In this document: one piece after another, positions 18,755 to 45,971 of the stretch
Layout of the letters: the number at the start of each line of letters is the position of its first letter
How positions within the stretch are numbered: the first letter of the stretch is position 1
NCBI GenBank assembly: GCA_023522315.1
Contig: JAHCSU010000240.1
Location: 1 to 46,166, forward strand
From: Nostoc sp. CCCryo 231-06
GTDB lineage: Bacteria > Cyanobacteriota > Cyanobacteriia > Cyanobacteriales > Nostocaceae
Direction: 5' to 3'
DNA length: 46,166 nt
Notes under the pieces: generated by a model
Told to the model about the DNA's origin: nothing
Seen by the model: the letters and a program-made list of their open reading frames with translations, nothing else
Databases searched by the model: none
Program-made: the position numbers and the translations under genes

Positions 18755-20320
18755 GTGTCAGAGTCAAGTGACGAACTAACAGCTTTCTCGCGGCGTCAAC
18801 CCTTAAATCGCCGCCAGCCGCCACAAAAAGTTCAAAAAGTGGTAAAGAAGAAAGTTAAAGCTAACAACCAGCAGCAACCTGCGAATGGACGAGAAGCGGC
18901 GCTAACACGCCCAAAAAATCCGATCAGTCCTCCCCCAATCCCCGGTGCTACACGTAGGGTAAAATCGGGGTTAGTCATGCCAACCACAGTCAAACCAATA
19001 CCTAGTGTCAAGGGCAAAATTCCTCCCTTTCGACCAGGTGCTGTGATGGTGAAAACAGTGCGGATGGAAAGGCCAAAAAGAGGACTGCGTTCATCGCGGA
19101 AGACACGGTTAAAACCAATGGCCAAAACCTTGTTGTATGTTGTGCGATTGTTGATTGTGGGTGTTGGCATGGGTGCAATTGTTGGCACAGCATTGTCAGT
19201 ATTAGACCCCGCTAATCGCATCAGCACAACTTCTGCGCCGCAATCTAATAGTAATGTGACGCGGGAGCAGCCACAACCAACCCAAACTCCCCCGGTTGCA
19301 GCTTCGAGCTTATACTTATCCCAAGAAATTAGCTCTTTGAAAAGTGCCGTGCAAAATTTGGCGACGGCCAACCCAAATCTTACACCCGGTGTTTTCTTAG
19401 TAGATTTAGATACTGGTAATTATGTAGATGTCAATGCTTCTACCAGTTTTCCGGCCGCTAGCACAATTAAAGTACCGATTTTGATTGCCTTTTTCCAGGA
19501 TGTGGACGCGGGGAAAATTCGCCTTGATGAAATGCTGACCATGCAACAGGATATGCTTGCTGGCGGTTCGGGAACCCTGCAACGCCAACCAGCCGGAACC
19601 CAGTACGCTGCTCTGGAAGTCGCCACAAAAATGATTACCGTCAGCGATAATACGGCGACAAATATGCTGATTGCGCGACTGGGAGGAATAGACGCCTTAA
19701 ACCAGCGTTTCCGCACTTGGGGATTAACAACCACAACAATTCGTAATCAACTCCCCGATTTGCAAGGGACAAACACCACTACTCCGAGGGAATTGGGGAA
19801 TTTGATGGCTATTGTGAGTCAGGGAAATTTAGTGAGTATGACATCACGCGATTTTATGCTCGATATCTTGCGTCGCACCCAGAGAGACACTCTGCTACCA
19901 TCCGGTTTGGGAACAGGCGCAAGAGTATACCACAAAACGGGCGATATTGGTACTATGCTGGCAGATGCAGGTTTAATTATTGTTCCAACTGGCAAACGCT
20001 ACATAGCCTCAGTCATGGTACAACGTCCCAATAATGACCCTCGCGCCGAAAAATTGATTAGCTCAATCTCTAGTGTTAGCTACCAAGAATTTAGCCAAAA
20101 TGCTGTCACACCCAACACTAGCACAAGCATAATACCCGCAAATGGTTATCAGCCACCTGTTGTAAGTCCTGCTTTACCCAACGGTACAACGGGCACTGTA
20201 CCCATGAGCATTTATCAGCCCCCTATTGTGAATCCTGTACCCAACAGTATGGGAAGTACAGTACCCCCAAACGGTTATCAATCTCCAGTTATGAATCCGC
20301 AGTATTATCCCCCAAGATAA
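18755..20320 (+). CDS. Membrane-anchored class A beta-lactamase-fold serine hydrolase
   Basis: 521 residues starting at GTG, with GGAG just upstream. Residues 1-120 are basic, Pro-rich and disordered; 124-150 is one membrane segment; the catalytic domain spans about 190-450. The beta-lactamase/transpeptidase motifs are present: nucleophile Ser236 in S-T-I-K, SDN at 297-299, likely omega-loop Glu346 in PRELGNL and KTG at 394-396. So it may hydrolyse beta-lactams or act on peptidoglycan. The C-terminus (about 455-521) has Pro-rich repeats with NGYQPPV/IYQPPIVNP units. The long cytoplasmic basic tail is unusual for a secreted beta-lactamase and hints at a cell-wall role. Substrate unknown. Confidence 0.88.
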   Translation: MSESSDELTAFSRRQPLNRRQPPQKVQKVVKKKVKANNQQQPANGREAALTRPKNPISPPPIPGATRRVKSGLVMPTTVKPIPSVKGKIPPFRPGAVMVKTVRMERPKRGLRSSRKTRLKPMAKTLLYVVRLLIVGVGMGAIVGTALSVLDPANRISTTSAPQSNSNVTREQPQPTQTPPVAASSLYLSQEISSLKSAVQNLATANPNLTPGVFLVDLDTGNYVDVNASTSFPAASTIKVPILIAFFQDVDAGKIRLDEMLTMQQDMLAGGSGTLQRQPAGTQYAALEVATKMITVSDNTATNMLIARLGGIDALNQRFRTWGLTTTTIRNQLPDLQGTNTTTPRELGNLMAIVSQGNLVSMTSRDFMLDILRRTQRDTLLPSGLGTGARVYHKTGDIGTMLADAGLIIVPTGKRYIASVMVQRPNNDPRAEKLISSISSVSYQEFSQNAVTPNTSTSIIPANGYQPPVVSPALPNGTTGTVPMSIYQPPIVNPVPNSMGSTVPPNGYQSPVMNPQYYPPR

Positions 20321-30921: not shown

Positions 30922-31551
30922 ATGACTCAGCAATCAACCAGACTCAAAAACCACGTAGCACCTAAAGGTAAAAGGCTGTCCCAAGCTCTAAACTCTAAGT
31001 TTGGTGTAACCCTTGCAGATTTTGATAATGCGATTAATGGTGATGTTGCCACAGCACAGAAAATAGGTGAATTAGCCCGTCAAGGCAGACTATCAAGTGA
31101 ATTAGCTCCAAGATTGGCCCAAGCTTATTTAGAAATTATCAATGGCAGTGAGGCTTACAACAAAGCTACTGCTGATATTTTAGTACAAGCTGGTAAGAGT
31201 GCGATCGCTATTGACAAGGCAGTATCTCAAACGATGCTGGCTAATTCCCGATATGGGCATGAGCGTAAAGAATTGGCTCAACAATTTGGAATTGCGCGAA
31301 ATGTAGAGAATAATCGTCACAATTATCAAATTAACTACACCGAAATTAAGGGATACATTGATGCTCAGTTGGTTGGAGTTGATCAAGAAGCTGGAATTCT
31401 TGACCAATCTAATAGACCAGAAGTAAAAAAAATTGCAGCTAATGAACAATTACAGCAACGGCAAATTAATGTTCACTTTCTCAACCCAGACAAATTATTT
31501 GGCGATCGCCAAATAATACTCAAATCGCTCCCGGAGTTTTTCAACCGTTAG
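30922..31551 (+). CDS. Unknown cyanobacterial protein
   Basis: 209 residues, not recognised. It is soluble, rich in Ala, Gln and Asn, and mostly helical in appearance (ATAQKIGELARQGRLSSELAPRLAQAYLEII). No membrane segment, signal peptide or known motif. The last 57 bases overlap the end of the GTPase gene on the other strand; the final residues (FGDRQIILKSLPEFFNR) come from that shared DNA, so the original C-terminus may have been lost or extended. Confidence 0.65.
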   Translation: MTQQSTRLKNHVAPKGKRLSQALNSKFGVTLADFDNAINGDVATAQKIGELARQGRLSSELAPRLAQAYLEIINGSEAYNKATADILVQAGKSAIAIDKAVSQTMLANSRYGHERKELAQQFGIARNVENNRHNYQINYTEIKGYIDAQLVGVDQEAGILDQSNRPEVKKIAANEQLQQRQINVHFLNPDKLFGDRQIILKSLPEFFNR

Positions 31552-33408
31552 ATTCTGAGTCCAGTATTCCACTAGGGCGTGACCAAATGCCCAGGCGTTG
31601 CGATCGGGTGAAGCGGAGTTTTCTAGCAGTAGCGGCCAGAGGGATAGTAATTCAAAGTTGAGCGGGTTAGGGTTAGCTGTATTCAAGAGCGAGAAAAGCT
31701 CATATCCCATTTGGAGTTTGCCAATCACAATCGGTAACTGTTCCACGGGAATTTGCTCTGCCAACATATATGCTAGGGCTGGAGATCCGGTTGAGAGCGT
31801 AGAAACAAACTGGAGGACGGGACTTTTGAGCAATGAGGTTAGTCCCTGTGTTGTCGCCATTTGGAAGGTATAGTGGTCGATGATTTTGGCTGCGGCGACG
31901 GTGCGGACTTCGAGGTTACGCAAAAAGCGGGCGAGACGGAGTTGCTTGGTAGGTGCGATCGCATCCACTAATCCTAAGGATAGCGCCTCTACTCCCCAAG
32001 CAACTCGACCCGTTTTGCTGTCACCTGTAACCACAGGCACAACTAGATTACAGAAGTTTCCCAGCAGTTTGGCCCGATACTCAGTAGCTTCTCGAATGGC
32101 AATTTCTTTTGGACGATTACCCCATTCCCAATCATAAGGCGGTTGCCATTCGCGGATGGGACGCAGACGATCTACTTGAGTGACGATCGCGATCGCAGGT
32201 AAATCTGCAACTTCTGCTTTTATGTCTTGCAGAAAGTCCACATCCATTTGCAGGGCAGGATCGAGGGCAGGGGTGACTAACAGCAGCAAATCTGCATTAA
32301 TGGCATAATCAAGCACTAGGTTTCGGAGATCGGCACGGTTGACTTGTTCGTAACCAGGTGTATCCAAAATCGTCAAAGTTTCCCCACTTTCAGTCTGCCA
32401 TTGATAATTTTGAATGCGATCAGTACTGGGTAAAACATCAACGGCTGCTAAATCTGCCTGAAATAGCGTGTTAATCAGGCTACTTTTTCCCGACCCCGTG
32501 CGCCCCACCAGCAGAATATTCACGGGTTTTTGCTCAACGGCCTCGGTGGGTTGAGCTTGAGCCAGGATTTCTCGGAGTGTTTGGGTTTTTGCCTTGGGTA
32601 AAGTCGTAGAAGCTACGGTTGCTGAAACTGGTAATGTGCTACGCCCGTAAAGTGCGATCGCCTGCCGACATAAGTTTCTCAGGGCAGCTTCCCGGAATAA
32701 CTGGCTCAAATTCCCCAATAATTGCTGAGTTGCCTGGTTACTAGAACCCTTGCTGGCTTGTTTTGCCACCGCCGCCACCGGATTTAATACCCACTGTGCC
32801 CAGTTCCAAGCTTTCCAGAATTTTCGAGCCGATGGTTCCAACTTCCGATAGACTTCGTATCCTTGGTATGCTTGGCCAACCGTCACCTGATTGAGGACAG
32901 GGGATAACTTTTGCATCCACTGATCCATATCATCCACTGTTCCGCGAATCAGCCCGTAAGCTTGGGGGACGTAAATGTTCAGTAGAGGATATTGAATTTG
33001 AGGATTGTAGATATGAGCGATCGCTACAACCAAATCTTGGCATCGCGTCCAAAAAGTTTGCCAATCTTCCCAAATCGGGCGATCGCTTTGTGCCGCTTGC
33101 AAAATCTCTTGAAGTGCGGTTTCTGCAAGCTTTGTGACATCACTTCCCACTGTTCGTAGAGTATCCTCTACTGTCGATTCTAGTTCTTCTTGGACTTGGG
33201 CTAATACAGCTTCTACTTGGTTGACAGCTGGTTGAGTCCATTTCACCAATAGCCAACGCCAACCAACAAATAAAAGGGTGAATACACCCCAAATCCAACT
33301 AATACCCCACGCATGAATTTGTGAACCGGCGGATACCAGTATGAAAATTATGATAAACGCGATCGGGATTGCTAAGACGACCCACTGCCACGGTTTTAAT
33401 CGCACCAT
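31495..33408 (-). CDS. Membrane-anchored Era/dynamin-like GTPase
   Basis: 637 residues. Two membrane segments lie at the N-terminus (about 9-27 and 33-53), then a long helical region. The G domain starts near residue 295 with G1 VGRTGSGKSSLIN, switch regions with DVLPSTDR, G3 LDTPGYEQ and G4 TQVD. The C-terminal 150 residues are helical and partly hydrophobic. Related cyanobacterial proteins are annotated as HSR1-type GTP-binding proteins; a role at membranes or in division is possible but unproven. It converges on and overlaps the unknown gene by 57 bases. Confidence 0.82.
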   Translation of the reverse strand: MVRLKPWQWVVLAIPIAFIIIFILVSAGSQIHAWGISWIWGVFTLLFVGWRWLLVKWTQPAVNQVEAVLAQVQEELESTVEDTLRTVGSDVTKLAETALQEILQAAQSDRPIWEDWQTFWTRCQDLVVAIAHIYNPQIQYPLLNIYVPQAYGLIRGTVDDMDQWMQKLSPVLNQVTVGQAYQGYEVYRKLEPSARKFWKAWNWAQWVLNPVAAVAKQASKGSSNQATQQLLGNLSQLFREAALRNLCRQAIALYGRSTLPVSATVASTTLPKAKTQTLREILAQAQPTEAVEQKPVNILLVGRTGSGKSSLINTLFQADLAAVDVLPSTDRIQNYQWQTESGETLTILDTPGYEQVNRADLRNLVLDYAINADLLLLVTPALDPALQMDVDFLQDIKAEVADLPAIAIVTQVDRLRPIREWQPPYDWEWGNRPKEIAIREATEYRAKLLGNFCNLVVPVVTGDSKTGRVAWGVEALSLGLVDAIAPTKQLRLARFLRNLEVRTVAAAKIIDHYTFQMATTQGLTSLLKSPVLQFVSTLSTGSPALAYMLAEQIPVEQLPIVIGKLQMGYELFSLLNTANPNPLNFELLSLWPLLLENSASPDRNAWAFGHALVEYWTQNLTVEKLRERFEYYLAIAK

Positions 33409-33636: not shown

Positions 33637-34947
33637 ATGCTTGTAGATTTTACAGTCGAAAACTACCGTTCAATTAAAGAACCTGTAACCCTAAGTGCAG
33701 TTGCTCAAAAACAAAGCGATCGTCAGACAAGCCAAAGCAGTAAACGTAAACGGGTGAAGTCAGATCATGAAATTGCACCTGGATATCATGTTGAAGGGTG
33801 GGACATTGAGCTTTTACCTGTCCTGGCAATTTTTGGAGCTAACGCATCAGGCAAGAGTAATGTTATCCAAGCTTTGGATTATTTATTGCTTATGATGTCT
33901 CAAGGCATTCAGGAAGTGGTGAAATTCCAGAGAATCTTTAAATATGCAAAACTAGACCCTTTCAAATTAGATAGTATCTCTGCCCACACTCCGACCAAAT
34001 TTGAGTTAAGAACTATATTTGGTAACACCATCTATACTTATTATTTAGTAATTAATCAAAATCATGTAATTTCAGAAAACTTAGACTATGCTTTAAACAC
34101 GACTAAGCGAACTCGTCGTTTATTCCATCGTAAATGGGATGAAGCTAGTAAAAAGCTTATATGGAAAACTGGTGATGATTTTGTTGGGCCTCATAATCAA
34201 CTACAGCATAATATTAGAGAAAATGATTTATTCATTACTACATTATTAAAGCTAAAAATAGATAAAATCGAGTCTTTTTTAACCTGGCTAAGAACTGGCT
34301 GGCGAGGACTAAATCTGGGAAATGAAGATTTAGATATAGCTGCAATTACGTCTATAGAGAATGCTTCCGTATTTAAGGAATTACTTGAAAAAACATTAGA
34401 TATTGTACGAAAATTTGATACGGGACTGTCTAGGATAGAGTTAAAAAAGAAATCTGATGCTCAGGTTGACTATAACATATATGCTGTACATAATACTAAT
34501 GATGGTAACGAAATACAGTGGCTTTTCCATGAAGAGTCTCTTGGCACTCAGCGTTTATTTAACTTGGCATTCCGCATAGTAGTATCTTTAAAAATAGGCG
34601 GATTGATAATTGTTGATGAATTAGGCACAAATATTCATCCTAATATTGTAAAAAGTATTATTAGAATATTTCAAAATCCTAAAACTAATCCCAGAAATGC
34701 TCAACTGATTTTGACAAGTCATGATAATACCTTACAAAGAAATAACTTATTACGCCGCGACCAAATTTGGTTTACACAAAAGCGCCCTGACCAAAGCACT
34801 GAGTTGTATCCTTTGACTGATTTCCATGTGCGAAATGATTTGGCCATTGACAAAGCTTATTTAGATGGTCGTTTTGGAGCCGTTCCGTTTATCCCATCTG
34901 ATGAGGAAATGATTTTACAGGGTGATGAGCAGTGCCAAGAAAGTTAA
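33637..34947 (+). CDS. RloA/AbiL-type AAA ATPase
   Basis: 436-residue AAA15-type ATPase. MLVDFTVENYRSIKEPVTLSAVA opens the fold; Walker A is GANASGKSN (about residues 69-77), the signature SLGTQRLFNLAF, Walker B LIIVDELGTNIHP and switch His ILTSHDN. The 16-base overlap with the next gene, an RloB protein, marks this as the ATPase half of an RloA/RloB unit, like Lactococcus AbiL (AbiLi/AbiLii), which aborts phage infection. Related to but clearly different from the ATPase at 1351-2496. Confidence 0.87.
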   Translation: MLVDFTVENYRSIKEPVTLSAVAQKQSDRQTSQSSKRKRVKSDHEIAPGYHVEGWDIELLPVLAIFGANASGKSNVIQALDYLLLMMSQGIQEVVKFQRIFKYAKLDPFKLDSISAHTPTKFELRTIFGNTIYTYYLVINQNHVISENLDYALNTTKRTRRLFHRKWDEASKKLIWKTGDDFVGPHNQLQHNIRENDLFITTLLKLKIDKIESFLTWLRTGWRGLNLGNEDLDIAAITSIENASVFKELLEKTLDIVRKFDTGLSRIELKKKSDAQVDYNIYAVHNTNDGNEIQWLFHEESLGTQRLFNLAFRIVVSLKIGGLIIVDELGTNIHPNIVKSIIRIFQNPKTNPRNAQLILTSHDNTLQRNNLLRRDQIWFTQKRPDQSTELYPLTDFHVRNDLAIDKAYLDGRFGAVPFIPSDEEMILQGDEQCQES

Positions 34948-35564
34948 ATCGTCATTCACCTAGCAGAAATATTGCTCAGAAAATACTAATTGCTTGTGAA
35001 GGAAGTAAAACAGAACCAATTTATTTCAATAGTATCCGCAATGAATTACGTTCGCCAACTTTAGATATTATTGTATTGCCTCATCAAAACAAAACTGATC
35101 CACGTAGCATTATTGAAAGACTCATCGAAGAACGACAGCAGAGGAAAGATAACCAGCAATGGAGTAAAGAAGATAAGGCTTGGGCTGTTTTTGACGGAGA
35201 TGAGCATATTGAAAAAAGTTTGGCAAATTGGCAAAGTGCAATAAATCGAGCTAAAAGCCAAAAAATTAATCTGGCAATTACAAATCCTTGTTTTGAACTC
35301 TGGTATCTAATTCACTTTCAAGACCATTTTGCACAAATCACTCGTGATAGGTTAGTTAATTTGCTTGAAATGCATATACCAGACTATGACAAATCAATGT
35401 GCTTGTATCCAAAACCATTGAAATCGTTAACAGAACAAGCGATTCAACGTGCTGAGAAGATTGCAAAGCAGATAGAACGTAATGAATTATCTGAGCATTC
35501 AAATCCCTGCTGTAGTGGCTTGTCTAAATTGATTAGTAGTTTATTAAATTTAAAGAATAGTTAG
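34932..35564 (+). CDS. rloB: RloB-type TOPRIM protein (AbiLii-like)
   Basis: 210 residues of the RloB family. The TOPRIM-like acidic motif ILIACEGSKTEPIYF (about residues 18-32), the Asp-x-Asp of WAVFDGDEH and the family hallmark NPCFELWYLIHF are all present. It is probably a metal-dependent nuclease or effector controlled by its ATPase partner. Translation is coupled to rloA by overlapping ends. A hairpin at 35646-35670 follows. Defence role inferred from AbiL and from rlo genes found in restriction loci. Confidence 0.86.
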   Translation: MPRKLNRHSPSRNIAQKILIACEGSKTEPIYFNSIRNELRSPTLDIIVLPHQNKTDPRSIIERLIEERQQRKDNQQWSKEDKAWAVFDGDEHIEKSLANWQSAINRAKSQKINLAITNPCFELWYLIHFQDHFAQITRDRLVNLLEMHIPDYDKSMCLYPKPLKSLTEQAIQRAEKIAKQIERNELSEHSNPCCSGLSKLISSLLNLKNS

Positions 35565-38234: not shown

Positions 38235-40877
38235 TTATTCATCATCTACGTCTGCTTCCTCTACCCATTCTGGTGTAGTTATGGAATCGGATAATTCTGG
38301 GAAATCATCTGCAAAACGAATAATTTGTCCGTTGAAAAATTCTGCTAGACGTTGAGCTGCGATCGCTACTTCGTCAGGTTCCCAATCAGGTGCGGGTGTT
38401 TGTTTTGGCGGTGGAGGCAAAGCTTGCATCCCATTTCTATTTCCCCCATTTCCATTTGTCCCATTTCCATTTGTCCCATTTCCATTTACCCCATTTCCAT
38501 TTCTTACCGTCGGCTCAGTTTTTAGTGGTGCTGGTGTCGTTGCTGGTGGTGGATTGCTTGCCTGTGGTGCTGGTGCTGGAGACGGAATTTGCTGGTTGTA
38601 ACTGGGAGTTGGTGGTTGCTGAGGGCGAGTAGAGTCTTTTGGGGGAGAATTTTTTTTGGCTGAGGTAGAGTTTGAAGAAGTTCCTTTTTCTATATTTATC
38701 TGGATTTCACGCTGGAAAGTCTGCTGGAAAGCTGCCGTAATCATCGGTAGATAAGATTTCCCTTTGTCATACCATGCCTGTTTGATAGCAATTCGAGCCA
38801 CAACACCATCGAACTCGATGAGTTGGCTCATTTGACGCAGCATTTCTTGCCTTGATTTTGGCTGGAGGTTGGCAAGCACTTGTTGCCAAATCTGAGTTAA
38901 GTCATATTGTGCTTCCTCAACAACTTCTGAAGTTACTGGTTCAATATTCACCGATGGCACAGGAATAGCAACAGGTTCTGGAGTTGGTGGTGAAACTGAG
39001 TTAGCAGCAGAATTGTGATTTGTTTGCCGTTCAACTGGGGGAGATGAAGTGACGGGCTGATTTGGGGCAGCCGCTACATGATCGTTTGCAGAATTATGAT
39101 TTTTTTGCGGTTCAGCTACCGGTAAAGAAGAGACTGCATGATTTTGGGCAACTGCTGGAGAATAGCTTGGAGATACAGCAGGTGTATTAACTCGCTGCGT
39201 GACACTTGGGGCTTGTGGCTGAATATTCGTCGCACTGGGTAACAATCCTAGTAATGTTACTTCCAACCACAAACGCGGCTGGGTGGTATTTTTAATTTGC
39301 ACTTCAGCTTCTCGCAAGTGTTTTTGTCCTGCCAAAATCACGCTCATATCGAAGTATTGAGCAAACTCAACCAACGCTGTCCAGGTTTGCTGAGTACAAG
39401 CAACCAAATCGTGGCGATTAGGTGCAGTTTTGGCAATGAGTAAATCGCGGTAGAAGGCGGCGAGATTTTGCAGAAGAGTTAGGGGTTCTCGACCACGATC
39501 TAGAATGTAGTGAGTACAGTCTAGAACTGCTTCGGGTTTATCTTGAGCGATCGCATTTAAAAGCGCCAGCAAGTCCTGTTCGCTTACTGTCCCAACTAAA
39601 TCCCAGACTCTATCGGGTGTCACTTCACCGGCTAATAAACCCAATTGATCAAGTAGACTTTCGGCATCTCGTAACCCTCCCTGAGCAAGTTGCCCTACCA
39701 GGGTTACAGCGTCGGGTGAAATATGAATATTTTCTTTAGATGCGATCGCACTTAAATGCTTCACCATCGCCTCTAACTGAATGCGTCTAAAATCAAACCT
39801 TTGACAGCGCGAAATAATTGTTGGTAACACCCGTTGGGGGTCTGTTGTCGCCAACACAAAAACTACGTGTCTCGGTGGTTCTTCTAATGTCTTTAGTAGC
39901 GCGTTGAATGCCTGGGTACTGAGCATGTGGCAATTATGCACCAAAAGCCCGTTTGCCACAAAGTTATGATTATCTGCCACTTCAATGTCATAGACTCGCT
40001 CAACCCCAGCGAGGTGAACAGATTCGACTGTCTCGAAACTTGTAATCCATGAGGATGCCGCATCTACATTAACCTGACTTTTCACCTCATCTGAAAAAGC
40101 TAAGGCCAAACCTAACCCCCCAACCCCCTTCCTTACTAGGGAATAGGAAGAATTCAAAGCCTCTCCCCTAGAAGGGGAGAGGTTTGGAGAGAGGTTTTCC
40201 AGATCCCTATTCACAGGTGATAGTATCTTCACTCCTTCTTTTACGTCCAATGCTTGTAGCCATCCCCGATCTGTCCTAATTAAATGATTACCCGTACATC
40301 TAATTTCTCGATTAGTTGTCTTGATAACCAGGGTTTGCCGTTCCCCTTGATCTAACCACCTAACAACTTTCTTGAATTCCCACTTACTTAATAAGTCGTT
40401 GTAGCTCAGAACCTTCTTATCTTTAATTTTGGGATCATCAATTCTTTGAAATCCCTCATCAGTCAAAACCAGAGAATCTCCAGTTAAGCATTCATCGATT
40501 ACATAAACCTTGTAGCGACACTGCACAGGAGCAAACTGGGCTTTTTCAATCAACTCGCGGATATTATCAACACCAGTATTACTGGCGGCGTCGATTTCAA
40601 TTACGTCTAAGGCGTAGCCCTTGCTGATCCCCTGACAAACATCACACACGCCGCAGGGTTCCGCAGTGGGCTTGTCACTTTTGAGACAATTAAGAGATTT
40701 AGCCAGAATCCGGGCACTAGAAGTTTTCCCCGTACCTCTAGGCCCAGTGAATAAATAGGCGGGGGCGATTTTGGATGTGCCGATCGCGTTCGTGAGGGTG
40801 GTAGCGATCGCCTCTTGGCCCACTAGTTCAGCAAAACTCTTGGGGCGATATTTGTGGTGCAGGGGTTCGTAAGACAT
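38235..40877 (-). CDS. dnaX: DNA polymerase III tau/gamma subunit with intein
   Basis: Clamp-loader ATPase of the replicase. The ATG at 40877 gives MSYEPLHHKYRPKSF, the family start; a frame open to 40904 adds nine unlikely residues. Walker A is TGPRGTGKTS, zinc ligands lie in PCGVCDVCQG, Walker B is YKVYVIDE|CHMLS, sensor 1 VLATTDP and the arginine-finger region ISRCQRF. The precursor is 880 residues; removing the 186-residue intein (130-315) leaves 694. The C-terminal half is Pro/Gln-rich and ends in an Asn-Gly repeat (nt 38430-38510) and an acidic tail. The intein interrupts the Walker B/sensor stretch, so the clamp loader cannot work until splicing. Confidence 0.96.
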   Translation of the reverse strand: MSYEPLHHKYRPKSFAELVGQEAIATTLTNAIGTSKIAPAYLFTGPRGTGKTSSARILAKSLNCLKSDKPTAEPCGVCDVCQGISKGYALDVIEIDAASNTGVDNIRELIEKAQFAPVQCRYKVYVIDECLTGDSLVLTDEGFQRIDDPKIKDKKVLSYNDLLSKWEFKKVVRWLDQGERQTLVIKTTNREIRCTGNHLIRTDRGWLQALDVKEGVKILSPVNRDLENLSPNLSPSRGEALNSSYSLVRKGVGGLGLALAFSDEVKSQVNVDAASSWITSFETVESVHLAGVERVYDIEVADNHNFVANGLLVHNCHMLSTQAFNALLKTLEEPPRHVVFVLATTDPQRVLPTIISRCQRFDFRRIQLEAMVKHLSAIASKENIHISPDAVTLVGQLAQGGLRDAESLLDQLGLLAGEVTPDRVWDLVGTVSEQDLLALLNAIAQDKPEAVLDCTHYILDRGREPLTLLQNLAAFYRDLLIAKTAPNRHDLVACTQQTWTALVEFAQYFDMSVILAGQKHLREAEVQIKNTTQPRLWLEVTLLGLLPSATNIQPQAPSVTQRVNTPAVSPSYSPAVAQNHAVSSLPVAEPQKNHNSANDHVAAAPNQPVTSSPPVERQTNHNSAANSVSPPTPEPVAIPVPSVNIEPVTSEVVEEAQYDLTQIWQQVLANLQPKSRQEMLRQMSQLIEFDGVVARIAIKQAWYDKGKSYLPMITAAFQQTFQREIQINIEKGTSSNSTSAKKNSPPKDSTRPQQPPTPSYNQQIPSPAPAPQASNPPPATTPAPLKTEPTVRNGNGVNGNGTNGNGTNGNGGNRNGMQALPPPPKQTPAPDWEPDEVAIAAQRLAEFFNGQIIRFADDFPELSDSITTPEWVEEADVDDE
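39933..40490 (-). other. DnaX mini-intein
   Basis: 186-residue intein between Glu of VIDE and Cys of CHML. Block A is CLTGDSLVLTDEGF (nucleophile Cys1), block B GNHLIRTDRGW with its His, block F VYDIEVADNHNFVAN, and block G ends LLVHN|C (penultimate His, terminal Asn, Cys+1). All splicing residues are present, so it should be active. No LAGLIDADG or HNH endonuclease remains; the central linker is instead encoded by a dispersed repeat. Inteins in DnaX are known in Synechocystis, there with an endonuclease. Confidence 0.95.
40096..40199. repeat. Dispersed repeat inside the intein
   Basis: About 100 bases of the CTCTCCCC...GGGGAGAGG / AACCCCCTTCC-type intergenic repeat, read in frame as about 35 residues (ENLSPNLSPSRGEAL ... 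GVGGLGLALAF). Contains a 9-bp perfect stem (40160-40168 with 40174-40182). A related stem lies at 46121-46143. Confidence 0.85.
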
Positions 40878-40904
40878 AGAAATATAGACTTCAATGCCTT
40901 TCAA

Positions 40905-41253
40905 AGGTAATTAGTAGCACCGAGTCGAGTTTAGGATTCAATTATTTTAGACTCTCGTACCTGCTTTGTTTGTCCATGTTGCCATAGCTCTTGCACTCAA
41001 CTAATGCCGTGAATTTTGGCACTCAGGAAAGCAAGTAACCAAAGCTTATCCTCTACTATGATTTCAATATCAAAGTATCGGAATTATAGCATATCATTTA
41101 GTACATTTGTTCTAGCTAGGGGAGTGGGGAGTGTGGGGAGCAGGGGAAGAATTTCTAACTCTTGACAAATGACAAATGCCCAAAGAATTTTAATGAATGA
41201 ACTAGCCCCATAGTCCAGTGCGATCGCTACAATCTTAGGATAAGCAAAACTCG
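40905..41253. other. Gap upstream of the CHAT pair
   Basis: 349 bases without a gene. It contains a G-rich GGGGAGTG-type repeat (41117-41148) and ATGACAAATG repeats (41165-41180), then the promoter of the paralogue gene. Confidence 0.55.
41228..41233 (+). promoter_or_regulatory. Candidate -10 box (TACAAT)
   Basis: GCTACAATCT with TACAAT 20 bases before the ATG. The same decamer lies 21 bases before the start of the CHAT gene. No clear -35 box. Confidence 0.45.
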
Positions 41254-41949
41254 ATGGTGCAGCAGATGCTCAAGCGGCTATTTCAATGGCTCAAAAAGCT
41301 TTTTCAGAGCTTGTTTGGTGGAAAACAGACTGCCTCAAAATCTAGGGAGAATGTGCAAAAAGAACCAGCGCCACCCTTAAGCGATACGGATCTGGAATTT
41401 CTCTTCACCGAACTGTTGCAAGGAGTACATCAAGTACGAGGGAAAGCATGGGCACAAAAGTGGCTGCATAATATTGAACATCGCATCCCAACTGAAGACT
41501 GGGTTGAGTGGTTAGGGCGCTTTGGCAAGAGATTGCTAGCATCACCTACACCCAATAATGAAATAGCTGCACGGTTAGTGCAACTGGGTGAGTTGGGCAT
41601 CGGAGAAATCGGAGATGTTGCCTATAGTATCGGGATGCAGTTGTTGACACGCAATCAAGGCGAACCAATTTGGGAATATGAAGGGCCAGATGCTGTTAGC
41701 ACGATACCATCTGAGCCAATCGCCCCCATATCCGAGTCGGTAGATGCGCCAGAGAACCCCCCGGAGGGAGAATACCAAACTGTCACCATAGAAGAGTTGT
41801 TTGTGATGTTGCAGGAGGATGAAAACTTACGCCAGCAGATTGCTCAACAGCTTGCCGTTGAGACAGATGATCCAGAACTGCTTGTCCAGGCATTGATCAA
41901 TCAATTATATCCTGCCGGTCAATCGACTACAGAGCAAACAGAAAATTAA
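41254..41949 (+). CDS. Short paralogue of the CHAT protein's N-terminal module
   Basis: 231 residues. An amphipathic, basic N-terminus (MLKRLFQWLKKLFQSLFGG) may touch membrane. Residues 40-140 match the start of the next gene: SDTDLEFLFTELLQGVHQVRGKAWAQKWL, then RIPTEDWVEWLGRFGKRLLASPTPN and LVQLGELGIGEIGDVAYSIG. A WEYEGPDAV unit follows, then TIEELFVMLQEDENLRQQIAQQLAVET, also shared with the CHAT protein. It lacks TPRs and protease. It may be a partner, sensor or regulator of the CHAT protein; inference. Two possible starts (41254, or ATG four codons in). Confidence 0.8.
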   Translation: MVQQMLKRLFQWLKKLFQSLFGGKQTASKSRENVQKEPAPPLSDTDLEFLFTELLQGVHQVRGKAWAQKWLHNIEHRIPTEDWVEWLGRFGKRLLASPTPNNEIAARLVQLGELGIGEIGDVAYSIGMQLLTRNQGEPIWEYEGPDAVSTIPSEPIAPISESVDAPENPPEGEYQTVTIEELFVMLQEDENLRQQIAQQLAVETDDPELLVQALINQLYPAGQSTTEQTEN

Positions 41950-42104
41950 CGACTTCGCAAAGTTAAGAGTCGAATCTGAGAATTGTAACGTTGTAATGCT
42001 CTACTCTTGAAGTTTTGTATATTTTTTGCTAACGTGCGACGGAAGCCCTGTCCCGATCTAATGGATTTTTACGTAATTGATGATTTTTTTAACACAACGA
42101 TGGC

Positions 42105-42110
42105 TACAAT
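42105..42110 (+). promoter_or_regulatory. Candidate -10 box (TACAAT)
   Basis: Same GCTACAATCT decamer as before the paralogue gene, at nearly the same distance from the start. It suggests the promoter was duplicated with the gene. Confidence 0.45.
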
Positions 42111-42131
42111 CTAGAAAAACAAAATCCAATA

Positions 42132-45100
42132 GTGTGGCAGATGCTCAGGCGGATATCGCAGTCGCTTAGAAGGTTTTTAAAGCGCCTCATTGAAAGTAAG
42201 CAGGCTAGTTCTCTCAAAGGTGCGAGAGGACACAATCTGGTGGAGATGCTACCAGAACTAACCAATGCGGATCTGGAACAATTGTTTATCCAATTGTTAG
42301 AAGGCGTGCATCAAGCACGAGGACGACAGTGGGCATTGAGGTATCTGCAACGGGTAGAAAATCGCATTCCGGCTGAACGCTGGGTAGATTGGTTGGTGAT
42401 GTTTGGCGAAAGCTTGCTAGCTTCACCGGCACCGAATCCTCTTTTAGCAACAAAGATGGTGCAATTGGGGGAACTTGGTGTTGGCAGAATTGGAGATGTT
42501 GCTTATGACATTGGCATCCGGCTGATGCAAAACTTATCCACACAAATAGAGGATTTAGAAATCACTCCTGGGGAAGAACTAATCCGCAATTTAGGCGAAC
42601 AGTTATGGGAGTATGATGAAGCTGATGTAATAGAAAGTACTCCTGGGCAAGAACTGATCCGCAATTTAGGCGAGCAGTTATGGGAGTATGATGAACCTGA
42701 TGTGGTAGAAATCACAACCGATGAAGAAATTATCCCAACTTCGCCTGGGCAAGAGTTAATTCGCAGCTTAGGTGAGCAGTTATGGGAATATGATGTGCCA
42801 GATGTTGAACCAATAACGTCAGCGCCTGAAAATGCCTCCTTTGAGCAAACATTCACCGAGAATTTAGAGGAACTGGTATTGGAGTATGAAAGGGAAGATG
42901 CCCAAACCACAATACCCGAAAATTTCCCTCTCCCCGCAGCGGAAGATTCAATCACCTCATTAGCCCAACTGAGGTTCGATGATCATGAAGAAGTTGTTCA
43001 AAGTACAACAGGAGCAAATCTCCTTTCTACTAGACAAAGAACTGAATTAACAACTTCTCCCTCAGTGGAAACTTGGGATAACTCTTTAACAAATTTAGAG
43101 CCAAATGTGGCTAATACATTAGATGAGTTGTGGGTGAGATTGGATCAAAGTACCAATTTAGTCCAGCAACTTGCTTCTAATTTGGCAGTTCAAAGCAGCA
43201 ATTCCCCTGGTATAATTGAGCGACATAGCGATGATCCTGTTACTCAGGCTCAAGGGTGGTTTTACCAAGGTCTAAGCCAAGCGAAAACAGGTGATTTGTT
43301 AGGCGCGATCGCATCTTATGACCAAGCCATCGCACTTCAACCAGAATTCTCAGAATATTGGTTTAACCGAGGCTTGACGCTGTTCCATTTAGAACGTTTT
43401 GATGAAGCGATCGCATCTTACGAAACCGCCATACAACTGAAACCCGACTTCTACAAAGCTTGGTACAACCGGGGTGGAACTCTCGGAGAATTAGGATATT
43501 TTGAAGAAGCGATCGCTTCTTTTGACAAAGCCATAGAAATCAAGCCAGACTACCAAGAAGCTTGGTCTAGCAAGGGTTTGGCACTGCTAAAATTAGGTTG
43601 GCTACCAGAAGCTATTTCTAGTTATGACCAAGCGCTACATTTGGAACCAGAAGATCAAGAAAACTGGTATCACCGTGGCATAGCCCTAGCTGTAGGCGAA
43701 CAATTTGCAGAAGCGATTATATCTTATGACAAAGCGCTAGAAATTAACCCAGAGTATCACGAAGTTTGGATAGATCGGGGTGTAGTGCTGTTTAATTTGG
43801 GAAGATGGTCAGAAGCGATCGCCTCCTGGGATAAAGCATTGTCAGTTCAATCCGACTTTTACTTAGCTTGGTACAACCGCGGTATAGCGTTAGACAACTT
43901 AGGACGTAGACAAGAAGCGATCGCCTCCTATCAACAAACGATCGCCATTAAACCCGACTTCCACTTAGCTTGGTATAATCAGGCAGTAGCACTGTTTTAT
44001 TTAGAACAATTTGTTGAAGCGATCGCCTGTTATGACAAGGCTTTGCAAATTAAACAAGATTATTGGGAAGCTTGGATTGGTCGGGGAACTGCGATCGGTA
44101 ATTTAGTCAATGCTGAGGCATTGCTGATGTCGAGTAGTATAACAGCCATAAATCCCGCCTTACGACAGGGCGGCTACGAAGGAAAACTAGCCAGCTATGA
44201 GGAAGGGTTAAAGCATCTGCGGACAGATACCCACCCAGAAGGTTGGGGTAGATTGCATTTTGCGATCGCTAATACTTACTACGACCAAGGCAAAAAAAAT
44301 ACTAATCCCCGCGATTATTGGCGCAAAGCTGCATCTGAGTACCATCAGTCCCTGTTAACCCTCACACTAGAATATTTTCCCCAGTTGCATCTAGAGGTTT
44401 TGCAATCTCTAAGCAAAGTGCTGATGGGTTTGGGGCAAACAACACAAGTTCAAGAATTGCTGCAACGCGGTACAGATTTATTGCAACAATTACTCAGTGA
44501 AGAAACTCGCTCAGACGAAAGTAAAAAACAGTTAGCTCTAAAATTTGCAGGCTTTGACCAATTGGCAGTTGATTTAGCCGTAGAATCTGGTGATTTAGTT
44601 GAAGCCTGGGAAATTGCCGAACAAGGTAAAAATGCTTGTTTAAACTGGCTGCTTTCTGGCTGGAATGATAATATTTACTCTCCTCATTATGGCGCAATTC
44701 AACAACTATTCAATCCCACAACAGCAATTATTTACTGGCATATTAGTCCAGTCGCCCTACACACATTTATTCTCAAAGACCAAGCGCCATCACCCATCCT
44801 CCTATTTACACCCATGCAAGATACTGGGGCAATACCTCTAGGAGAAGACGCTATTCGTCTCAATGAATTACCTCTACCCGAAGCAGTACAACGCCTAATT
44901 GAATTTGAAAGTTGGCTAGAAGATTGGCATCAACAATACCTAGAATATCGCAGCACGGCCCAAGACAAAGAAAGTAAAAGCCAGCATTCTTGGCGAGTTG
45001 ATATGGAACAAAAGCTGTTGCAACTGTATGAAATTCTGAATATTTCTACAATTGCACAGGAACTTGAAGGCATTACCCAACTGGTTTTAATTCCTCACCG

Positions 45101-45971
45101 TGATTTGTACATATTGCCTATTCATACCCTTTTCCATCTTTCTTCCCCATCGCCGGAAGAGTTACCGAATGTGGAGTCAAATTTCACCGTTACCTATCTC
45201 CCTAGTGCCCAAATAGGTTTATCAATAAGAACTGAAGATATCTGGCAGTGGCAAAATCAATTATTGCTCAGTGTTGAACATCCTGACAATACAGGTTATC
45301 CCACAATGAAATTTGCCAAACTTGAGTCTGAAGTTGTTAGCCAGATGTTCAATAATATCCAACGAATTCAGGGGTCAGAAGCTACAAAAAATATTGTTGA
45401 AAACGCCTTATTTGATAATTATAACATCTTTCATTTTACTGGTCATGTGACTAATAATTTAATTGAACCCAAAAAGTCAGTATTAGCATTAGCAGGTGAA
45501 GACCAACTTACTCTAGATGAAATCTGCCAACAAAATCTAGGAAGTTACAATCTTATTACTCTATCTGCTTGTGAAAATTTAAGTACTAGCAACCACACTA
45601 TCAGCAGCGAATATGTGAGTTTAGTGACTGGTTTTGTGAGTCAGGGCGTTCCTCATGTAGTGAGTACTCTCTGGAGTGTAGAATCTTCAGCTAGTGCCTT
45701 GGTAATGATAGAGTTTTACCGACGATTGCAGCCCAATAAATCAGCAGTTACTGCCTTAGCTGAAGCAACCCGATGGTTGAAAGAACTAACTGCTGGAGAA
45801 TTGACAAGATGGTATGAAGATGTCTTGAATAATCTGCATCCTGAAGAATTACGAATTCAAACTTATTTAGCGACGCAACTATATAGAAATAGTAAAATGG
45901 CATCAGATAAAAATCTTTATAATCATCCTTACTACTGGGGAGCATTCACGATTACAGGTAAGCCAAATTAA
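42132..45971 (+). CDS. TPR-CHAT caspase-like protease
   Basis: 1279 residues starting at GTG (or the ATG at 42141). Order: amphipathic basic N-terminus; a module shared with the previous gene (about 40-135); three near-copies of ELIRNLGEQLWEYDEPDV (about 145-225); an acidic linker; LDELWVRLDQSTNLVQQLASNLAVQ (about 335-360, shared); about eight 34-residue TPRs (372-655, WYNRGIALDNLGR... type); a helical link; and a CHAT domain (about 1000-1279). Catalytic residues are His1105 in FHFTGH and Cys1147 in LSACEN, followed by GVPHVVSTLWSVESSAS. CHAT proteases are caspase/separase relatives, some acting in anti-phage cell death. The target is not in view. Confidence 0.92.
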   Translation: MWQMLRRISQSLRRFLKRLIESKQASSLKGARGHNLVEMLPELTNADLEQLFIQLLEGVHQARGRQWALRYLQRVENRIPAERWVDWLVMFGESLLASPAPNPLLATKMVQLGELGVGRIGDVAYDIGIRLMQNLSTQIEDLEITPGEELIRNLGEQLWEYDEADVIESTPGQELIRNLGEQLWEYDEPDVVEITTDEEIIPTSPGQELIRSLGEQLWEYDVPDVEPITSAPENASFEQTFTENLEELVLEYEREDAQTTIPENFPLPAAEDSITSLAQLRFDDHEEVVQSTTGANLLSTRQRTELTTSPSVETWDNSLTNLEPNVANTLDELWVRLDQSTNLVQQLASNLAVQSSNSPGIIERHSDDPVTQAQGWFYQGLSQAKTGDLLGAIASYDQAIALQPEFSEYWFNRGLTLFHLERFDEAIASYETAIQLKPDFYKAWYNRGGTLGELGYFEEAIASFDKAIEIKPDYQEAWSSKGLALLKLGWLPEAISSYDQALHLEPEDQENWYHRGIALAVGEQFAEAIISYDKALEINPEYHEVWIDRGVVLFNLGRWSEAIASWDKALSVQSDFYLAWYNRGIALDNLGRRQEAIASYQQTIAIKPDFHLAWYNQAVALFYLEQFVEAIACYDKALQIKQDYWEAWIGRGTAIGNLVNAEALLMSSSITAINPALRQGGYEGKLASYEEGLKHLRTDTHPEGWGRLHFAIANTYYDQGKKNTNPRDYWRKAASEYHQSLLTLTLEYFPQLHLEVLQSLSKVLMGLGQTTQVQELLQRGTDLLQQLLSEETRSDESKKQLALKFAGFDQLAVDLAVESGDLVEAWEIAEQGKNACLNWLLSGWNDNIYSPHYGAIQQLFNPTTAIIYWHISPVALHTFILKDQAPSPILLFTPMQDTGAIPLGEDAIRLNELPLPEAVQRLIEFESWLEDWHQQYLEYRSTAQDKESKSQHSWRVDMEQKLLQLYEILNISTIAQELEGITQLVLIPHRDLYILPIHTLFHLSSPSPEELPNVESNFTVTYLPSAQIGLSIRTEDIWQWQNQLLLSVEHPDNTGYPTMKFAKLESEVVSQMFNNIQRIQGSEATKNIVENALFDNYNIFHFTGHVTNNLIEPKKSVLALAGEDQLTLDEICQQNLGSYNLITLSACENLSTSNHTISSEYVSLVTGFVSQGVPHVVSTLWSVESSASALVMIEFYRRLQPNKSAVTALAEATRWLKELTAGELTRWYEDVLNNLHPEELRIQTYLATQLYRNSKMASDKNLYNHPYYWGAFTITGKPN

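Follow-up and report, generated by a model that had tools for sequence, protein, structure and literature searches.

Do the two genes near the end of this stretch of DNA encode a protease and its regulator, or two parts of something else? The window, that is, the whole stretch of 46,166 nucleotides analysed here (from Nostoc sp. CCCryo 231-06), carries a short gene followed by a long gene, which share an N-terminal module; the long gene additionally encodes tetratricopeptide repeats (TPR) and a C-terminal CHAT domain. It is common to take CHAT proteins for proteases, both in models of defence and in those of death, and a preliminary description had read the locus as a protease-free copy next to the enzyme, in a candidate signalling, cell-death or defence unit. 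Our analysis indicated that both the protease and the defence readings are unlikely, and that the two genes probably encode a housekeeping assembly of non-catalytic nature, not a protease with its decoy or a defence system. To the more specific explanation, in which the two proteins carry sister modules from one duplication and would form one non-catalytic, membrane-associated assembly with CHAT as a binding scaffold, we assign close to an even chance.

The features of the two genes are as follows.

41254..41949, plus strand: short gene, 231 residues, with N-terminal helix, module, WEY motif and tail mini-domain, and with neither TPR nor CHAT
41257..41316, plus strand: short residues 2-21, basic amphipathic helix, likely membrane-binding (structure model and Heliquest-type score)
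41362..41673, plus strand: short residues 37-140, shared module of five predicted helices (blastp, structure models)
41671..41691, plus strand: short residues 140-146, WEY motif (WEYEGPD), a pattern kept in the short proteins of the family
41782..41913, plus strand: short residues 177-220, tail mini-domain, the part with the lowest ratio of nonsynonymous to synonymous change (dN/dS), with helices in the model of a relative
42132..45971, plus strand: long gene, 1279 residues, GTG start, with module, WEY repeats, TPR and CHAT
42234..42545, plus strand: long residues 35-138, shared module, sister clade to the modules of the short proteins (support 100/98)
42606..42887, plus strand: linker of the long protein, with three WEY repeats and one LEY variant at residues 159, 184, 218 and 250 (sequence, motif list)
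43230..44111, plus strand: long residues 367-660, TPR array (Pfam TPR_1, 204.5 bits, 8 stretches; dN/dS 0.09)
44112..44681, plus strand: long residues 661-850, conserved stretch between TPR and CHAT (blastp)
45018..45959, plus strand: long residues 963-1276, CHAT domain (Pfam PF12770, 137.8 bits, cut-off 24)
45444..45446, plus strand: His1105, dyad histidine in FTGH, intact in the window (alignment to Csx29)
45570..45572, plus strand: Cys1147, dyad cysteine in SACE, intact in the window (alignment to Csx29)

A shared module without a name

Both tandem open reading frames of the preliminary description were found at 41254..45971, and the window stops 195 bases past the long gene. The probable genuine starts are an ATG at 41266 for the short gene and a conserved ATG at 42141, 9 bases past the GTG, for the long gene. 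The similarities that had been described between the two genes were recovered by blastp and DNA comparison: the N-terminal domain (77 of 175 residues identical, E 1e-44), a later segment (13 of 29 identical, E 4e-4) and the promoter-region DNA at the two starts (47 of 61 bases identical, E 1e-9, over about 46 bases upstream plus the first codons). A Pfam scan of both proteins likewise placed the TPRs and CHAT in the second gene only, and the long protein passed the curated PF12770 cut-off of a CHAT domain protein. The domain stood as described, with its boundaries moved from residues 40-135 to about 37-140 in the short and 35-138 in the long protein. The WEY motif, overlooked in that description, is also common to both proteins, with one copy in the short and three WEY plus one LEY in the long. 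Some 20 residues of basic amphipathic helix, a module of roughly 100 residues with five modelled helices, and the WEY motif within a loose linker thus make up the shared part; the tail mini-domain of about 45 residues comes next in the short protein.

The shared domain had been called unrecognised, and it remained so in our searches, with no convincing match in Pfam, NCBIfam or PADLOC. The short protein gave no match in any of the three at E up to 1. Pfam and PADLOC scans of 32 modules taken from a diverse set of genomes gave no convincing match either; in PADLOC, the module alone gave four stray single matches among the 32, with a best E of 0.0075. Judged by eye, the tail would resemble Nif11 leaders; for the short protein, Pfam returned nothing at E up to 1.

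All structure models were of single chains. The model of the short protein had a mean predicted local distance difference test score (pLDDT) of 67.7, with 75-89 in the blocks of the module and with the N-terminal helix modelled. A module-TPR relative from Synechocystis salina gave a mean pLDDT of 81.7; its module, tail helices and TPRs were mostly above 90 (module blocks 83-97, tail helices about 93), and its linker was low. The N-terminal helix of the short proteins is predicted to bind membranes, as its Heliquest-type score was at least 1.34 in all 82 short-size proteins vs 2 of 360 control stretches.

Loss of the catalytic dyad in a constrained CHAT domain

In the counts given here, the family is most probably Nostocaceae and the genus Nostoc. 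We examined 82 family genomes closely; they were picked after a module match, and the 72 long orthologues taken from them, which adjoin the short gene or are paired with it, are not a random draw.

H1105 and C1147 of the long protein align with H585 and C627 of Csx29, the TPR-CHAT protease of the type III-E CRISPR Craspase. PMC9729208 describes the latter two as the catalytic pair, with activity abolished by C627A or C627S. The dyad was intact in 24 of the 72 long orthologues, and one or both residues were changed or missing in 48. The altered states were Tyr/Cys (15), Gln/Cys (7), Arg/Cys (4), His/Ser (4) and other combinations (9). Furthermore, nine proteins of 753-992 residues, which form one clade (L157, L158, L159, L162, L164, L175, L176, L230 and L231), stop before the dyad. 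Intact dyads were found in 13 of 23 orthologues in the genus vs 11 of 49 elsewhere. The histidine was changed in 10 of the 23 and changed or missing in 34 of the 49, and the cysteine was intact in all 23. The nearest sister of the window's long protein, 96% identical over 737 columns, has Asn replacing His. As controls, 12 other CHAT domains, those alignable by profile among the 24 loci supplied, were compared, and 11 of them keep both residues.

On a quick tree built with CHAT left out, in which two long branches (L163 and L165) were joined, the distribution of intact and lost dyads needs at least 13 changes by parsimony, a count blind to loss versus regain; 11 of them are forced by the starred branches. 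Within the genus, the dN/dS of the CHAT C-terminal half was 0.126 in His-less proteins, 0.123 in the Tyr clade and 0.116 in those with an intact dyad. Catalysis therefore looks dispensable while the CHAT sequence is retained, because the dyad is often lost and CHAT is equally constrained without the histidine. The CHAT domain is predicted to descend from an active protease and to be in the course of becoming a pseudoprotease. The nine-protein clade lacks even the second half of CHAT, which suggests that the core of the long protein consists of module and TPR.

These data bear directly on the proposal that the long gene encodes an active TPR-CHAT protease, with the protease-free paralogue as an adaptor, decoy or substrate that holds or feeds the protease via the module or WEY. 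The intact dyad in the window and in a third of the orthologues, the constraint on CHAT in the genus and the co-conservation of the pair would fit such a system, and Csx29 acts on a partner protein according to PMC9729208. However, two-thirds of the long proteins are without one or both catalytic residues and nine lack the whole C-terminal half, yet the short proteins keep their motif in 79 of 81 cases, and CHAT is constrained alike in the His-bearing and His-less groups of the genus. We consider this reading improbable, and a decoy role of the short protein unlikely; it may be an adaptor or a subunit. The conserved role of the pair hardly depends on proteolysis, given the 48 orthologues without a full dyad; the phrase "protease-free copy next to the enzyme" was thus not supported, nor is Cys1147, which had been singled out for mutation, decisive for the entire family.

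Sister modules and selection on both genes

In a tree of 68 modules over 115 columns, whose inner forks are weak at this length, the modules of 20 family short proteins formed one clade (support 100/93) and those of 20 long proteins another (100/99). The two were sister clades and jointly one clade (100/98), and grouping the modules of the long proteins with those of other TPR-CHAT proteins was rejected (p-AU 0.001). Judging from this sister relation, the two modules are the products of one duplication at the base of the family, in its ancestor.

In relatives outside the family, the module, the WEY motif, the tail mini-domain and TPR are combined in a single chain encoded by one gene, which in several cases lies beside dnaX. 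The short protein retains the module, the WEY motif and the tail mini-domain and is without TPR. The long protein retains module and TPR, matches just part of the tail segment and seldom keeps the full WEY.G.D. The pattern [WF]E[YF].G.[DE] was found in 79 of 81 family short proteins; among the long proteins, 51 of 72 had some [WF]E[YF] and just 7 of 72 the full WEY.G.D-type form. A Trichocoleus protein whose gene neighbours dnaX combines TPR with part of the middle region and is without CHAT; in this relative (L108), blastp found part of the 661-850 stretch, with 40% identity over 111 residues.

The preliminary description had allowed that the short gene might be a truncated copy under relaxed selection. 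The absence of the TPR part, which most counterparts outside the family carry, would suit a truncated, decaying copy. However, dN/dS over 22 genus sequences, calculated pairwise by the Nei-Gojobori method within the genus and over related, non-independent pairs, was 0.18 for the short gene and 0.047 for its tail mini-domain, the most constrained part; in addition, the motif is kept and matches to the protein are found almost throughout the family. Decay is refuted by the selection test, and we give it practically no weight. For the long gene, the corresponding values over 22 genus sequences were 0.15 overall, 0.09 for TPR and 0.12 for the CHAT C-terminal half.

A widely conserved locus beside dnaX

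Conservation of the pair, on which the preliminary description had made its proposal depend, was found throughout the family. The short protein was matched in 214 of 217 family genomes, with two or more matches in 210 as read from the match table and one match in G450. Among the 82 genomes examined closely, the short gene was found in 81, the remaining one being cut by a contig end. Short then long, adjacent on the same strand, occurred in 70 of 82 with a median gap of 242 bases; both genes were present but apart in 7, and contig ends cut the locus in 4. One or both genes were not found in G005, G006, G261, G462 and G475, where a close dnaX was not found either: G005 and G006 have just more distant dnaX relatives, and the other three have none at E 1e-30. 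These absences may be assembly gaps, since the close dnaX is likewise not found.

Beyond the family, a phylum sample gave module matches in 80 of 292 genomes, 77 of the 80 within the same order. A named scan gave 44 loci, 43 of them with a module protein; 42 were titled as cyanobacteria or their bins and one as a Gracilibacteria bin. Carriers include Microcystis, Crocosphaera, Synechocystis and Prochloron. Three endosymbionts of the diatoms Rhopalodia and Epithemia, with reduced chromosomes of 2.8-3.1 Mb, retain CHAT-less module-TPR relatives. Of the 43 module proteins, 38 have at least 339 residues and none exceeds 522, so that they cannot hold module, TPR and CHAT together; in those relatives that were aligned, TPR repeats follow the module. 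In 16 other module proteins scanned (10 + 6), the partner of the module was TPR, TPR-CHAT or none.

Recurrent neighbours, found by clustering of the flanks and not by a search for ternary conflict-system components, comprised dnaX and others. In the window, dnaX is divergent from the short gene:

38235..40904, minus strand: dnaX, DNA polymerase III gamma/tau with an intein (NCBIfam PRK14948, 879 bits; Pfam intein domain PF14890)

A dnaX relative lay near the module gene at 17 of 20 genus loci and at 14 other loci, at least 2 of these being second copies of one locus, and it was on the opposite strand to the module gene in all 29 loci listed besides the window. This breadth across the family, the phylum and the endosymbionts, together with the dnaX neighbour, is the profile of a housekeeping gene. 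The dnaX orthologue at L066 has 726 residues, and so by its length is without the intein insert.

The same distribution is relevant to the view of the pair as a defence or programmed-death unit in which TPR senses an invader and CHAT executes, as in Craspase or gasdermin systems. The TPR-CHAT architecture is that of Csx29, although the NCBIfam match was weak (37 bits vs a cut-off of 300). PADLOC matched the long protein to TPR models (E 2.4e-8, 0.0014 and 0.0041; best 31.5 bits), to BovA in the CHAT part (E 0.0055, 13 bits) and to a PrimPol model (E 0.016), none of which covers a system. Furthermore, AbiL-like genes and a dynamin/LeoA-like GTPase gene lie 5.7-9.8 kb from the short gene. Against this stand the core distribution in the family, the dnaX neighbour, the persistence of the module-TPR form in reduced endosymbionts and the frequent loss of the dyad. 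In addition, a close AbiL-like copy was near the pair in just 1 of 23 other genomes, and 8 of the 23 had any match. We therefore regard a defence role as very improbable. The suggested cell-death or defence function found no support in a locus whose recurrent neighbour is dnaX, and for which PADLOC gave nothing for the short protein and just TPR-type and weak matches for the long one. As for nearby defence genes, the AbiL-like genes are at least 5.7 kb away in the window and rarely near the pair elsewhere.

Some further genes of the window were characterised. The AbiL-like genes, an AAA ATPase and RloB-like pair at 33637-35564, matched PADLOC AbiLi with 282 bits and AbiLii with 85 bits; in G007, an 83% identical copy of the AbiLi-like gene is found some 7 kb away from the pair and is the sole close copy among the 24 genomes searched. 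Adjoining them at 31495-33408 is the gene of the dynamin-type or LeoA-like GTPase of 637 residues. At 18755-20320, a class A beta-lactamase-like protein of 521 residues (NCBIfam 145 bits, under the cut-off of 200) is encoded, likely a serine hydrolase.

A common promoter element

The same element was found before both genes:

41226..41233, plus strand: promoter element GCTACAAT of the short gene, with a -10-like TACAAT; the same element precedes the short genes of the family
42103..42110, plus strand: promoter element GCTACAAT of the long gene, within a conserved 80-base upstream block; found before the long genes of the family

GCTAnAAT lay about 31 bases (29-36 in the short genes) upstream of the conserved ATG in 61 of 81 family short genes and 67 of 72 family long genes. 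None of the 43 genes of relatives from outside the family has it upstream, and among 4760 random stretches of 120 bases it occurs in 91; it is thus characteristic of the pair. Rfam searches around the two starts gave zero matches at E up to 1. Of 80 upstream bases, 67 were invariant before the long gene (23 genus sequences) and 36 before the short gene (22 genus sequences). The non-coding block 42061-42140 before the long gene is more conserved than the coding parts of that gene, with 48 of its last 50 bases invariant in the 23 genus sequences. The first 34 codons of the long gene also showed low synonymous change, with a median of 0.09 vs 0.35 for the whole gene.

The element can be set against the possibility that the two genes encode independent proteins with a duplicated module, where the short protein alone does the old job of the dnaX-side gene, the long one has a separate role, and their linkage is inertia. 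Each gene has its own promoter element, the genes are apart in 7 of 82 genomes, one genome has the short gene alone (G085, below), and two short forms outside the family (L073 and L074) occur without a second module gene. However, the element is the same at both genes, their loss of parts is partly complementary, and both copies are kept in nearly all sampled family genomes even where unlinked. Independence of the two proteins is thus conceivable, though in our estimate rather doubtful.

A proposed membrane-associated assembly with CHAT as scaffold

The reading that we prefer, one non-catalytic assembly of both proteins, would work as follows. The two copies would divide the work of one ancestral-type single protein. 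The basic amphipathic N-terminal helix would put both proteins at the membrane, and short and long are expected to meet, most simply via the shared module, because the job of the single-chain relatives looks split between two chains. The TPR and CHAT parts of the long protein may then bind client proteins, and residual catalysis, if there is any in strains such as that of the window, would not be the reason for which the pair is kept. Co-function of the two genes is supported by their adjacency in 70 of 82 genomes, by the presence of both in the 7 genomes where they are apart, and by the common promoter element.

Several points weigh against this assembly. The window's protein and 13 of the 23 genus orthologues keep both dyad residues, so that an active protease is possible in the window's strain, and the count of dyad changes, as noted, does not distinguish loss from regain. 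The TPR-CHAT body of the long protein is nearest to other TPR-CHAT proteins (47-48% over 938-958 residues), which its module is not; the long gene may therefore have arisen when a duplicated 5' end was fused to a TPR-CHAT body, and not as a plain duplicate. In G085, a one-contig family genome of 3.8 Mb (L174), the short gene stands beside dnaX and the long partner was not found. Outside the family, the TPR-less short forms L073 and L074 lie near dnaX, and their genomes contain no second module gene, so that loss of TPR need not require a long partner. A helix score of at least 1.34 was reached by 53 of 73 long proteins and by 60 of 72 other module proteins, less consistently than by the short ones. 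Finally, docking of WEY on the protein's own TPR array was unsupported, since the modelled module-TPR relative from Synechocystis salina has a pLDDT of about 50 at the motif.

In its broadest form, the proposal is that of an undescribed core assembly of cyanobacteria: a new helical module, anchored to the membrane and with WEY almost invariant, would have been split into two obligate partners in Nostoc-type cyanobacteria, one of them with a CHAT that repeatedly sheds catalysis while its fold is kept as a scaffold. We put this forward tentatively, with somewhat less than even confidence. In the literature, none of the titles listed concerned this pair, and "CHAT domain" and "pseudoprotease" were not found together in any paper; subscription papers and preprints were outside both searches, which are thus no proof of absence. 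A widely conserved TPR-CHAT protein has changed its dyad many times with no relaxation of CHAT in the genus, and annotations of CHAT domains as proteases accordingly need a check of the active site. Cyanobacteria ranging from Microcystis, Crocosphaera and Synechocystis to reduced endosymbionts conserve the module, a part of their cells that has no name, and the pair of genes offers a natural split of the module protein. If the proposal is true, the long protein would be a CHAT counterpart of pseudo-orthocaspases and pseudokinases.

Relation to known systems

We compared the pair with four known systems. Csx29 resembles the long protein in its TPR array followed by a C-terminal CHAT and in the aligned dyad positions. 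However, the long protein has an extra N-terminal module and its dyad is not conserved, and its match to the Csx29 model NF041237 of NCBIfam reached 37.4 bits, under the cut-off of 300; identity with Csx29 was rejected on this score. Cas7-11 and Csx30 had no match among the ten window proteins scanned against PADLOC, some open reading frames of the window being outside the scan.

HetF, a CHAT protein of heterocyst development and of the divisome, is like the long protein in being a cyanobacterial CHAT and TPR protein of filamentous cyanobacteria. In HetF, according to PMC8406250, the CHAT part is N-terminal (residues 1-555), transmembrane and TPR domains are also present, and mutation of the active site leads to loss of function. 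The long protein, with its C-terminal CHAT (963-1276) and often lost dyad, was therefore rejected as HetF.

The effector-associated domains (EADs) of multicellular bacteria are like the module in that a small non-catalytic N-terminal domain occurs alone and fused to a larger effector-like protein. According to PMC8195603, EADs are coupled to effector domains and ternary conflict systems. The module, in contrast, was seen only alone, with TPR or with TPR-CHAT, often beside dnaX, and also in unicellular and endosymbiotic cyanobacteria.

According to PMC6426788, pseudo-orthocaspases are caspase-like proteins that have lost the His-Cys dyad, most often to Tyr-Ser (YS for HC), and are still conserved across cyanobacteria; most of the cyanobacterial ones have no domains identified besides p20. 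Like them, the long proteins often replace His by Tyr and sometimes Cys by Ser, here as Tyr/Cys in 15 of 72 and His/Ser in 4 of 72. Unlike the pair, pseudo-orthocaspases belong to another family, that of the p20 domain, and are without TPR and without the N-terminal module. To our knowledge, they have no tandem partner. The long protein was rejected as an orthocaspase or pseudo-orthocaspase, since Peptidase_C14 was not among its 23 Pfam families at E up to 1. In its working, nevertheless, the pair would be most like the cyanobacterial pseudo-orthocaspases, though in a different protein family.

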